53,612 nt of DNA from Candidatus Nanopelagicales bacterium (GTDB lineage Bacteria; Actinomycetota; Actinomycetes; S36-B12). The translations under genes and the position numbers were made by a program. This document shows positions 9,731-53,612 of this stretch, in pieces. Location: contig JAFMHB010000015.1 of assembly GCA_017854795.1 (NCBI GenBank), positions 11,852 to 65,463 of the forward strand, in the 5' to 3' direction. The number at the start of each line of letters is the position of its first letter. The stretch's first letter is position 1. The notes under the pieces are model-generated. The model had not been told where the DNA came from, searched no databases, and saw only the letters and a program-made list of their open reading frames with translations.

Positions 9731-10343
9731 ACTCTCCCCCTGAAACTCTTAGAACACATCTGAGACTAATACAACGCATGTAGCATTGGCATGCGGGCAC
9801 TCCTCTAAGCCCTTTACTCTCAGTCAGACATTCAACCCCTTCTCCTATGTTCCTGAAGGACATCGATTAAAGGTTTTATAATGGAGAGGAAGTGAATGAC
9901 CGAAATAGCCAAGTAATTTCCCGGAAGTTCGCGTAATTTCAATCACAGGGTTTTGGCGGGAATCAAGATAACTGCAATCATGAACCTACAATCATGCTCA
10001 GATCCCGAATGTCATGAAGCTTTAAATTTTCTAGATTCCCAAATTTCGAATGCCTTGTGTTGAGTTGAAAGATACATCGCAGTTCGTGGTTTTTGAATTG
10101 AAATATTGGCGAGGCGGGGTATGGCCTATGGTGAAAGAACTGGAGGCACTGATCGATTGCTGCACCCGAGAATACTCTGAAAGTTTTTGGCAGGTTGTGT
10201 TATGAAAGTCATCTGGTGGATGGATTTCGGTGCAACAAGCGACACGCAGGTGCGTAGTAGGGTCCGGCGACTATTTTGTATTGTTTACTTTAAGTCTAGA
10301 CTTTCGATACAAGATCCTTTTTCTGAATCGAGGGTAAGCGAAT
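9731..10343. other. 613-bp intergenic region between divergent sugar genes
   Basis: No convincing gene is seen. It contains a perfect TATAAT (9877-9882) on the plus strand, followed by a GGAGAGGAAG ribosome-site-like run. Next come overlapping tiny frames: GTG 9892 gives 14 codons and ATG about 9896 gives 6. This may be a promoter with the stub of a lost gene. The rest is AT-rich and without repeats. A GAGGG ribosome-site-like sequence at 10330-10334 serves the next gene. Confidence 0.4.
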
Positions 10344-33689: not shown

Positions 33690-34532
33690 CTACAACTCGA
33701 TTGCGTTAAGGATCTGAGCAACACCTATCCCCGGTTCGGGTGACGTTATGAGATCTGCATGTGCCGCGACTTTTGGTACAGCACTTCCCATGGCCACGCT
33801 CAGGCCAGCCCAGTCCATCATTTCAATGTCATTCCACGAATCCCCGATTGCAATAGTTTTTGTGGGATCGATCTTTCGACGGGCACAGACCTCTTTGAGC
33901 ATGTTTGCTTTGTTGACCCCCTGGGGGGCGATGTCCATCCAAGATATTCGGTCGATGCCGAAGACAACTGAGTGGAACCCAAGGCTCTTGGCGACTTCGC
34001 TGTACGTTTGGGCAGTCGCGGTTTCACTGCGAACAACCAACCTGACGACATGTTGTTCGGTGAGTTCGGCAAGTTTGACTTCTCGAATATTGATTCCTAG
34101 GGCTCCAGTATCAAATAGGTGCGTTGTAAAGAAGTTGCCATCGGTGTTTTCAACTGCAAAGACGGCGTCAGGAACCAGGATTGTGAGTTGCTCAATTGCT
34201 TCGGATGCATCAAATGTGATTGCTTCCATGATCTTGCGGGTTTCAACCATGGCCAACACACCACCGTTACTACAGACAATTAGGTCCTCGATCCCAGCTG
34301 CCCGAGCGATAGGGAAAGTAGTACTTACTGAGCGCCCGGTTGCCAGAGTTACTTTGATACCGGCTTCGGTGATCCGCTCGATTGCGTCAACGGCCTCCCC
34401 TGGAAGGCTCCCCATGTGTTGTACGAGTGTGTCGTCAATGTCGAGGCAAATGAGTTCGGGTCGCCAATCAATTGGCAGTGTTTCCCCGGCGACGTGTAAG
34501 GGGACTTGTCCTGGAGCATGCGTTTGTGTCAC
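33690..34532 (-). CDS. HAD-superfamily phosphatase, Cof type
   Basis: 280 residues from GTG 34532, chosen because it overlaps the serS stop as GTGA; the longer frame would sit wholly inside ser[17 protein letters not shown] (motif I), [19 protein letters not shown], the lysine region [12 protein letters not shown] and [17 protein letters not shown] (motif IV) define a Cof/HAD-IIB enzyme with a C2 cap. Such enzymes dephosphorylate sugar phosphates or cofactors; the substrate is not predictable. Placement after serS is conserved in actinobacteria. Confidence 0.88.
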
Positions 34533-35827
34533 GCGAGCACTTTCTTTCCTCCGAGGAAAGGTTGCAGTGCTTTGGGCACAGTCACGGTTCCGTCGGCTTG
34601 TTGGTGGTTTTCCAAAATTGCAACAATGATGCGCGGCATTGCGCACAAAGTGCCATTGAGGGTTGCCAGTGGTTTTGTTCCTTCTGAATCGCGCATCCGA
34701 ATTTTCAACCGGCGGGCTTGATACTCGGTTGTGTTTGAAGTTGATGTCACCTCGCGGTACGTGCCCTGCGTTGGGATCCATGCTTCAATGTCGAACTTGC
34801 GAGCAGCACTTGATCCAAGGTCACCTGATGCGACATCAATTACCCGGTAGGGAAGCTCGAGGGCGTCAAGGAAATCTTTCTCCCATTGCAAGATTCGTTC
34901 ATGTTCTGCTTCAGCCTCTGCAGGATCGCAGTAAACAAACATTTCAACTTTATCGAATTGGTGAACACGAATAATTCCGGTGGTGTCCTTGCCGTAGGAA
35001 CCTGCCTCCCTTCGGAAACACGTTGACCAACCTGCATAACGCAGCGGCAGTTCAGCGGCAGGGATGATTTCGTCTGAGTGATACGCGGCAAGCGGAACTT
35101 CGGAGGTGCCCACCAGATACATGTCGTCGGATTCAATGCGGTAAACATTTTCTTCCGCTTGCCCGAGGAAGCCTGTTCCCTCCATTGCTGCAGGCAGCAC
35201 CAACGCGGGTGTGATCATGGGGATGAACCCGTTAGCGGTCGCTTGGGCCATGGCGAGATTCAGAAGTGCGAACTCCAAGAGTGCGCCCGGTCCGGTGAGG
35301 AAGTAAAAGCGTGAACCAGAAACCTTCGCACCGCGATCAACGTCAATTGCTTTAATCGCCTCGCCAATTTCTAAATGAGTCTTGGGTTCGAAACCCTCAG
35401 CTGCGAAATCACGTGGAGTCCCCACTAATTCGATTAGTTCAAATTTTTCTTCACCACCAACGGGTGAGCGAGGATCAACGATATTGGAAAGAGCTCCCGC
35501 AATCGCGTGTACTTTGTCATTGAGATTGGACGCGTTTTCATCGGCAATTTTTACTCGTGCGGCAAGATCCGTTGCCTTAACCATTAGGGCATCGACTTGC
35601 GCGGTGAGTTCTGCTGTTGGGTTCTTCTTGAGTGCACCCTGCAGCGGACCCATCTCTTTCCCAAGAATTTTCTGCTCATTACGCAGAAGGTCAAAGGCTA
35701 GTCTTCCTTCGCGCGCCGCGATGTCGGCTGCCAGCCACTGGTCGACCAGGGTCGCATCCTCGCCACGTTTGATTTGGGACTCGCGAACAAGCTCGGGGTG
35801 TGCACGCAGGATATTTGGATCAATCAC
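34529..35827 (-). CDS. serS: seryl-tRNA synthetase
   Basis: 432 residues from GTG 35827, beginning [17 protein letters not shown], the usual SerRS N terminus. The long coiled-coil arm (about 30-105) that binds the tRNA-Ser variable arm is present. Class II motif 2 is in [30 protein letters not shown] and motif 3 in [27 protein letters not shown] hexamer six bases before the GTG indicates a leaderless message. A tRNA-Ser(UGA) lies far away at the right end of the window. Confidence 0.96.
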
Positions 35828-35833
35828 GCTCCT

Positions 35834-35839
35834 AGTCTA
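35834..35839 (-). promoter_or_regulatory. -10 hexamer of leaderless serS
   Basis: TAGACT on the minus strand, then AGGAGC and GTG 35827. AGGAG is too close to the GTG to act as a normal ribosome site, so the leaderless reading is preferred. Confidence 0.5.
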
Positions 35840-35880
35840 CTTTTTGCTGGATAAGTAGATTTTTCGCGCTCATCAGGTCT

Positions 35881-35977
35881 AGAGGAAGGGTGCCTATAGG
35901 CAGGGTGGGTGAGACTCCCACGTTTTCATGTGGCACGATTCGCTGACTTTGCCTGATTGTCGGGCGAAGTGAGCCAC
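35881..35977 (+). ncRNA. possible structured RNA element upstream of SET-domain gene
   Basis: Several perfect stems lie in a row. TGCCTATAGGCA (35891-35902) is a 12-base palindrome. GTGGG (35905-35909) pairs with CCCAC (35917-35921). A longer hairpin has outer stem GTGGC/GCCAC (35930-35934 with 35973-35977), opposed internal-loop tetranucleotides ACGA and GTGA, and an inner stem TTCGC/GCGAA (35939-35943 with 35964-35968). Inside it GCCTGA/TCGGGC can also pair. The sense, promoter and family are unknown. It may be a leader, an independent RNA, or only a protein-binding region. Confidence 0.3.
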
Positions 35978-36026
35978 CAAGACACTGACAGACTTTATCT
36001 TTAAACACCGAATTGAGGGAGCCTTC

Positions 36027-36524
36027 ATGGACTACAACTGGTTGACACCAAAAGCGCAGGCTCGCCCGGCCGGTGAAAAAGGGTGGGGCTCTTTCGTCAT
36101 TGAGCGGATCAGCAAGGGTGAGACCGTTGCCGGTTTCGGCGGCTGGGTAATCGAGCGGGGGACTCTTGAGACCATGAGTGAAGACCGCCAGGGTCGCTCA
36201 ATCCAAATTGACCACGATCTTTATTTAGTGTCCAGTGACACCCCAGAAGCGGGTGACATGTTGAACCATTCGTGCGAACCAAACTGTGGTCTGATTGGAT
36301 CCCAGGTATTAGTTGCGATGCGCGATATTGAGCTCGGTGAAGAACTCTCATTTGATTACGCAATGTGTGACGCCTCAGATTACGACGAGTTCCCGTGCTT
36401 GTGTGAGTTGCCAACCTGTCGCGGTGTAGTGACCGGTATGGATTGGCGCAATCCTGAGCTTCAAGCAAAGTACACCGGTTATTTCTCACCGTACTTGATG
36501 CGCAGAATTGCAGCGCTCGTCTAA
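36027..36524 (+). CDS. SET-domain protein methyltransferase
   Basis: 165 residues after a clear GAGGGAG ribosome site. The SET fold is complete: KGWGSFVIERISKGETVAGFGG at the N terminus, NHSCEPNC (80-87), the SAM/pseudoknot motif, and GEELSFDY (104-111) with the catalytic tyrosine. The post-SET-like zinc motif is CLCELPTC (Cys124, Cys126, Cys131). The short length is typical of free-standing bacterial SET proteins. It should methylate lysine in a protein using SAM; the target is unknown. Its stop overlaps the convergent oxidoreductase stop by four bases. Confidence 0.88.
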   Translation: MDYNWLTPKAQARPAGEKGWGSFVIERISKGETVAGFGGWVIERGTLETMSEDRQGRSIQIDHDLYLVSSDTPEAGDMLNHSCEPNCGLIGSQVLVAMRDIELGEELSFDYAMCDASDYDEFPCLCELPTCRGVVTGMDWRNPELQAKYTGYFSPYLMRRIAALV

Positions 36525-53493: not shown

Positions 53494-53578
53494 GGCGAGG
53501 TGGCAGAGCGGCCGAATGCAGGCGCCTTGAAAGCGCCCGAGGGGAAACTCTCCGGGGGTTCAAATCCCTCCCTCGCCG
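53494..53578 (+). tRNA. tRNA-Ser (anticodon TGA)
   Basis: Acceptor stem GGCGAGG (53494-53500) pairs with CCTCGCC (53571-53577), discriminator G at 53578. The anticodon stem GGCGC/GCGCC encloses CTTGAAA with anticodon TGA (53528-53530). A long variable arm (GAGGGGAAACTCTC) is characteristic of tRNA-Ser, and the T loop is TTCAAAT. CCA is not encoded. It reads UCA and, by wobble, other UCN codons. Confidence 0.95.
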
Positions 53579-53612
53579 CTTTATCTGGCGTGGGATTTGG
53601 GAGGAGGTTGGG

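Follow-up and report, generated by a model that had tools for sequence, protein, structure and literature searches.

The region between serS and a SET-domain gene in the window (the whole stretch of 53,612 nt that was analysed, from a Candidatus Nanopelagicales bacterium) is best read as an ordinary promoter with a small hairpin at the start of the mRNA, and the look of a riboswitch is absent. Judged by comparison with related loci, the anatomy very probably consists of an extended -10 element, a transcription start near 35945/35946, and a hairpin at 35946-35970. The whole explanation, in which this promoter and SET leader start carry a hairpin that protects the 5' end, is held with slightly better than even confidence. 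An earlier note had proposed a structured RNA over 35881-35977, possibly a metabolite sensor, and this was partly supported. Something in the SET leader is probably conserved as RNA, as the small hairpin is kept there, but the remainder of the interval is promoter and upstream DNA, and the earlier reader was right that part of the leader seems to be kept as RNA and wrong on its extent and on the sensor. The riboswitch candidate is replaced by a testable anatomy of promoter, start site, and small covarying 5' hairpin, and a recognisable promoter core is offered for a freshwater actinobacterial group. The parts are ordinary, and the lineage is little-studied. Coordinates of the features are collected in Table 1.

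Table 1. Features of the serS-SET region, in positions of the window.
Feature	Position	Strand	Basis or remark
serS (seryl-tRNA synthetase), divergent neighbour	34529..35827	-	TIGR00414, 421.9 bits vs cutoff 301.65
Possible serS -10, TAGACT	35834..35839	-	By inspection; ends 6 bases before GTG start
Inverted repeat GTGGGTGAGACTCCCAC (GTGGG/CCCAC)	35905..35921	+	Upstream of promoter; no supported function
Extended -10, TGG-CACGAT	35931..35939	+	Consensus in relatives TGKCASACT
Predicted SET mRNA start, G or A	35945..35946	+	6-7 nt past hexamer, spacing taken from cimA
5' stem-loop of SET leader, ACTTTGCCTGA-TTG-TCGGGCGAAGT	35946..35970	+	11 pairs, 3-base loop; fold of 35946-36035
CTTTGCC, conserved first transcribed bases (predicted) and hairpin 5' arm	35947..35953	+	Alignment A1, anchored base counts
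Shine-Dalgarno-like GAGGGAG	36015..36021	+	By inspection
SET-domain gene, 165 aa	36027..36524	+	PF00856 SET, E 3.5e-10, 40.7 bits vs cutoff 22.4

The two genes diverge, serS lying on the minus strand and SET on the plus, so the 199 bp between them should carry two divergent promoters; serS may be leaderless, as the sequence at 35827-35839 suggests. The SET protein had no NCBIfam match at E 0.001. The stretch is present as a single copy in its own genome. No tRNA remnant was detected in the region by ARAGORN, the only tRNA found being tRNA-Ser at 53494-53579. Relatives of the SET gene were collected as 68 loci from one genome scan, together with genus, family, and order searches. SET matches were found in 6 of 12 genus genomes, 51 of 85 family genomes, and 87 of 166 order genomes (the last at the stricter cutoff of 1e-20). 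Several of the six genus genomes without a match are incomplete. L002 and L006, which are among the nearest named records, are titled Candidatus Nanopelagicales. At one locus (L168, G063:C221), the SET gene is cut down to about its first 16-20 codons with the promoter block retained, and the decayed gene sits between seemingly intact serS and quinone oxidoreductase genes.

Distinct SET upstream regions (n=68) were compared, and a loose pattern, TGNCANNNT, was sought 30-100 nt upstream of the SET start codon. It was present in 47 of them, from which L050 and L062 were dropped as doubtful, leaving 45 regions. The 21 regions without the pattern have mixed titles, several being Mycobacterium/Mycolicibacterium and one Acidimicrobiia, and one of them at least, L053, is a member of the same order; TAGNNT stands instead in several of the 21 (by inspection). 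The ungapped alignment A1, with 33 of the 45 regions chosen for a recognisable block, reads GTTCACCT-N3-RTGGCACACT-N7-CTTTGCC, and the block stands in the window as TTTTCATGTGGCACGATTCGCTGACTTTGCC. The conserved block is RTGKCASACT, with CTTTGCC 7-9 nt further on, and the upstream bases GTTCAC are likewise conserved in the alignment. T, G, C, A, and the final T are invariant in all 33 rows, bases that the search pattern itself had fixed.

TGn is the extension of extended -10 promoters. TGn followed by nANNNT, as in SigA-type extended -10 elements, is found at 35931-35939. According to the part of PMC6448022 that was available, ANNNT occurs at -13 to -6 in 79% of 6,090 promoters of M. smegmatis, where VANNNT promoters exist with lower expression than TANNNT promoters. 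In common with actinobacterial SigA-type promoters, the SET element has a TG that a single base separates from the hexamer, A as the second and T as the sixth hexamer base, and a start predicted 6-7 nt downstream. It differs in that the hexamer starts with C, not T, and the conserved block (RTGKCASACT with flanks) is longer than the generic element; a -35 is not evident. A sigma-70 consensus scan, which asks for a pair of hexamers close to the E. coli consensus, found no promoter. One literature search on Nanopelagicales promoters brought up no promoter map, as judged by titles and the starts of abstracts.

R1, a sequence-only model built from 33 SET upstream regions with the window among the training rows, matches the window at 35922-35954 (24.1 bits, E 1.8e-6) and nowhere else in it at E values up to 10. 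In 85 family genomes, 34 matches were obtained at E <= 1e-3, of which 32 are directly before SET, a count that is partly circular since many of the matched loci had trained R1. The two others are at the decayed SET locus in G063 and inside an ORF of G032 that we take to be clpX-like. Weaker matches, with E between 0.001 and 1, numbered 51, with 16 before rplS and 4 before SET (hand-matched). Among the other 31, L169-L170 have no clear target gene, and L170 lies upstream of an ORF that is presumably orn-like. In six SET upstream regions (L008, L011, L022, L028, L033, and L038), TGAACGTTCA was seen by inspection, and TTTCAC or TTTCCC stands some 18 bases ahead of the -10; this may be a further type of promoter, one that has a -35.

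Exact scans with two core versions in 82 family genomes located the core at 44 places, 12 before SET, 19 before rplS, 7 before cimA, and 6 elsewhere. In neither version does the core outnumber its reversed control (24 vs 26 for one, 20 vs 33 for the other), so it is the placement before the three genes alone that speaks. The rplS gene (L19, TIGR01024) was matched in 78 genomes, and 40 of its leaders (L257-L296) were sampled. RTGGCASACT is present in 36 of these and a near version in the remaining 4, all located by pattern. The rplS leader of the same genome as the window (G000:C16) carries an R1 match at 9806-9827 on the minus strand. In rplS leaders, TGTGGCA has a downstream inverse copy TGCCACA (longest match 6.65 vs 4.06, reached by 0/300 shuffles; the sequences are related), which in most of them lies inside a downstream TCTGCCAYAGGGGA-like block. 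This inverted repeat has two readings, a repeat at the level of DNA or an L19 leader structure not yet described; if TGTGGCA and TGCCACA pair in the rplS RNA, the element would be transcribed there, which would argue against a -10. A search of Rfam with 13 of the 40 leaders returned nothing but one sub-threshold hit.

The third gene, cimA, codes for citramalate synthase (TIGR00977 for L307, the other six loci by like sequence). At all seven cimA loci, the start codon of a putative leader peptide follows the hexamer at 6-7 nt (spacings of 5-9 were considered), as expected if transcription begins at that codon. Because the same element has this spacing before cimA, the SET mRNA is predicted to start near 35945/35946. 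The cimA loci L237, L299, L307, L309, L310, L312, and L316 have putative leaderless leader peptides with isoleucine codons, e.g., VHRTAIIIN, MSLDLIIIN, and VLSTAIIIP. By inspection, several of the cimA leaders also have GC-rich repeats and a T run like a classical attenuator. Leader peptides have been described for ilvB and leuA, and the word cimA is absent from the part of that paper available (PMC1262725).

The TGTGGCACA block could also be the operator of a DNA-binding regulator common to SET, rplS, and cimA, and not a core promoter. The near-dyad GTGTGGCACAC at some loci, the inverse copy downstream in rplS leaders (6.65 vs 4.06, 0/300), and the conservation of upstream GTTCAC would fit such a site, but the dyad is not kept, as the common form GTATGGCACACT breaks it. 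T, G, A, and T are also placed as an extended -10 needs, though the search pattern fixed these bases, the putative leader peptides start 6-7 nt downstream, and relatives from f7, another family of the same order, show GATAGCAT at the corresponding place (by inspection). An operator is therefore considered improbable, and the extended -10 element is preferred.

The region 35860-36000 folds with -51.2 kcal/mol on the plus strand (z -2.17; 5 of 200 shuffles equally good), and with z -1.23 on the minus strand (25 of 200). The complementary segments reported in the earlier note are present, namely GTGGC (35930-35934) with GCCAC (35973-35977), TTCGC (35939-35943) with GCGAA (35964-35968), and GTGGG with CCCAC within 35905-35921. 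The sequences for the suggested two-tier hairpin with tandem G-A pairs exist, but the lowest-energy fold differs from it and pairs CTTTGCC with GGGCGAAG (35947-35969) and draws on the same GCGAA bases. TTCGC/GCGAA thus competes with CTTTGC/GCGAAG, the pairing favoured by the fold program and supported by relatives, while the outer tier is at chance in relatives. The 5' arms of the two-tier hairpin would lie outside the mRNA, being upstream of the predicted transcription start. GTGGC/GCCAC, one of the two pairings proposed for checking, is at chance level in relatives. Pairing of the -10 region, which contains GTGGC, with the downstream leader was no commoner in 45 upstream regions than in shuffles (mean longest match 2.33 vs 2.37, or 2.40 vs 2.56 when the limits were shifted a little), and a complement of 9 bases between the two occurs in L003 alone.

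From 35881 to about 35921, the sequence is unconserved, upstream of the promoter block even genus members differ (four compared), and this part is probably untranscribed. L002 keeps the GTGGG/CCCAC repeat (GTGGG/CCCGC), in L003 it is disrupted (GCGGG/CGTCT), and L005 and L006 lack it. A terminator at this repeat was rejected, with one scan hit against 0.3 expected and the repeat not kept in relatives. The 17-mer GTGGGTGAGACTCCCAC was also found in 27 viral contigs.

Relatives gave no excess when the whole leader was folded (mean z -0.21, n=45), and the SET leader of the window has z -1.06 (35 of 200 shuffles as good); the signal is therefore one small hairpin and not a large fold. The hairpin at 35946-35970 is the only one of the pairings examined that relatives support, and what the homologous leaders have in common is the promoter block and this 5' hairpin. 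No Rfam family reached its gathering score in the region, and the only permissive hit (E up to 10) was a trypanosomatid snoRNA, scoring 18.3 bits where the cutoff is 50. Sensing of a SAM-related metabolite has no supporting sign, and the likeness of GAGCCACC to the end of cobalamin elements found no backing either, as there is neither an Rfam match nor a conserved multi-helix core. SAM and cobalamin riboswitches can be matched in Rfam and have a multi-helix core; the SET leader has neither and is like them in being leader RNA, nothing more. A riboswitch of a known class (SAM, cobalamin) was rejected, with no match at the curated Rfam score and the outer helix at chance in relatives. A riboswitch or other large structured RNA spanning all of 35881-35977 is extremely improbable. 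Its z of -2.17 over 35860-36000 speaks for it, but it lacks an Rfam match and support for the outer helix, its upstream half is not kept among the four genus members, and its 5' half would lie upstream of the predicted start of transcription.

From the predicted start, the RNA folds as ACUUUGCCUGA-UUG-UCGGGCGAAGU. The stem would begin at +1/+2, about 45 bases before the Shine-Dalgarno sequence. In relatives, the hairpin is stronger than in dinucleotide shuffles, with a mean of -5.39 vs -2.34 kcal/mol (0 of 300 shuffled sets as good), for the 33 of 45 sequences that were long enough (12 were too short) and at a location picked after the sequences had been read. The same test at two upstream offsets gave nothing (275 and 264 of 300 sets as good; 44 sequences). 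Single leaders at p 0.05 or below number about 9 of 33. In a swap test, in which the 5' arm was joined to the downstream part of another genome, the values were -5.18 vs -2.87 (0/20000) for a different set of 33 regions, namely the members of the 45 in which a CTTTG-like anchor occurs, and 1/20000 remained after thinning to 21 sequences. The rplS leaders used as control have no shuffle excess (-2.78 vs -2.67, 125/300), but their swap test still gave 200/20000, so this test is somewhat liberal.

Examples of changed pairs are GCCTG/CGGGC in the window, GTCTC/GGGGC in L002, GTTTC/GAGGC in L003, GTCGGC/GCCGAC in L029, and GCTGGC/GCCGGC in L016. Among seven leaders that share a stem of 6 pairs and a loop of 5 bases, rows selected for having that stem, all 42 cells pair and two of the six pairs change on both sides. 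By swap tests and pair counts, the structure is kept while the sequence varies; by a perfect-stem rule, the hairpin is absent in 11 of 33 leaders. In family f7, which is mostly AT-richer, the hairpin has -3.21 vs -1.39 in shuffles (0/300 sets) for the 16 of 21 leaders that were usable by a recognisable -10, several rows being close relatives. The f7 hairpin is absent from 6 of the 16, and the evidence from single sequences is weak (Fisher 0.016).

A hairpin that arose by chance from GC-rich sequence and shared descent would agree with the whole-leader z near zero, the liberal swap test on the rplS control, and the leaders without a hairpin. Such an origin is nevertheless improbable in view of the shuffle and swap tests at a fixed place, the result after thinning to 21, and the mostly AT-richer f7.

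A conserved hairpin is thus preferred, and a possible working can be outlined from it. RNA polymerase, presumably with the housekeeping sigma, would recognise TGG-CACGAT (35931-35939), and the SET mRNA would start near 35945/35946. Its first 25 bases would fold into the hairpin with at most about one free base ahead, and the paired 5' end would be hidden from end-dependent decay enzymes, so that decay would be slower. It is tentatively suggested, by analogy, that the hairpin shields the 5' end of the SET mRNA and stabilises the transcript, though we put this somewhat short of probable. A 5'-terminal stem-loop of the ompA type is a known stabiliser of mRNA. Stem-loops in the 5'-UTR stabilise recA mRNA in Acinetobacter and vacA mRNA in Helicobacter, according to the part of a review that was available (PMC7509114). 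Like these stabilisers (ompA, recA, and vacA), the SET leader has a simple hairpin that would lie at its 5' end or close to it, and a ribosome site well downstream; the stability effect is known there and predicted here, and the phylum is different and the sequence unrelated. Should this protection hold true, Actinomycetota would have in this hairpin a stabiliser of the 5' end that is conserved in evolution.

The hairpin could be real and act on translation, or on transcription during its initiation or early elongation (through promoter escape or pausing), instead of on decay, which we consider rather unlikely. It takes in the very first bases predicted to be transcribed, and the sequence of its 5' arm, CTTTGCC, is conserved, which a pure role in stability would not demand. 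Against these roles stands the distance of about 45 bases to the Shine-Dalgarno sequence, at which the hairpin cannot directly hide the ribosome site. The hairpin is also not terminator-like, as the scan lists the repeat at 35905-35921 only. Quite improbable is a protein-binding or autoregulatory RNA site, with the SET protein or another factor on the hairpin. The full 42-base block is nearly confined to SET (32 of 34 R1 matches at E <= 1e-3 in 85 genomes), but R1 was built from many of the same loci, so that this count is partly circular, and the loops have no obvious common sequence and 11 of 33 leaders have no hairpin. A wider proposal, that the hairpin is a dedicated regulatory site setting the expression of the SET methyltransferase (e.g., by autoregulation) and that the shared core ties SET to the L19 ribosomal protein and to the synthesis of isoleucine within a single growth-linked group of Nanopelagicales promoters, is given similarly little credence. 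Protection of the 5' end is the preferred role of the hairpin.

In family f3 (L197-L205 and L227), many SET leaders have a different, strongly conserved block, CACCGGACCC...GGGGCACCGGGC, which by inspection could form a hairpin.
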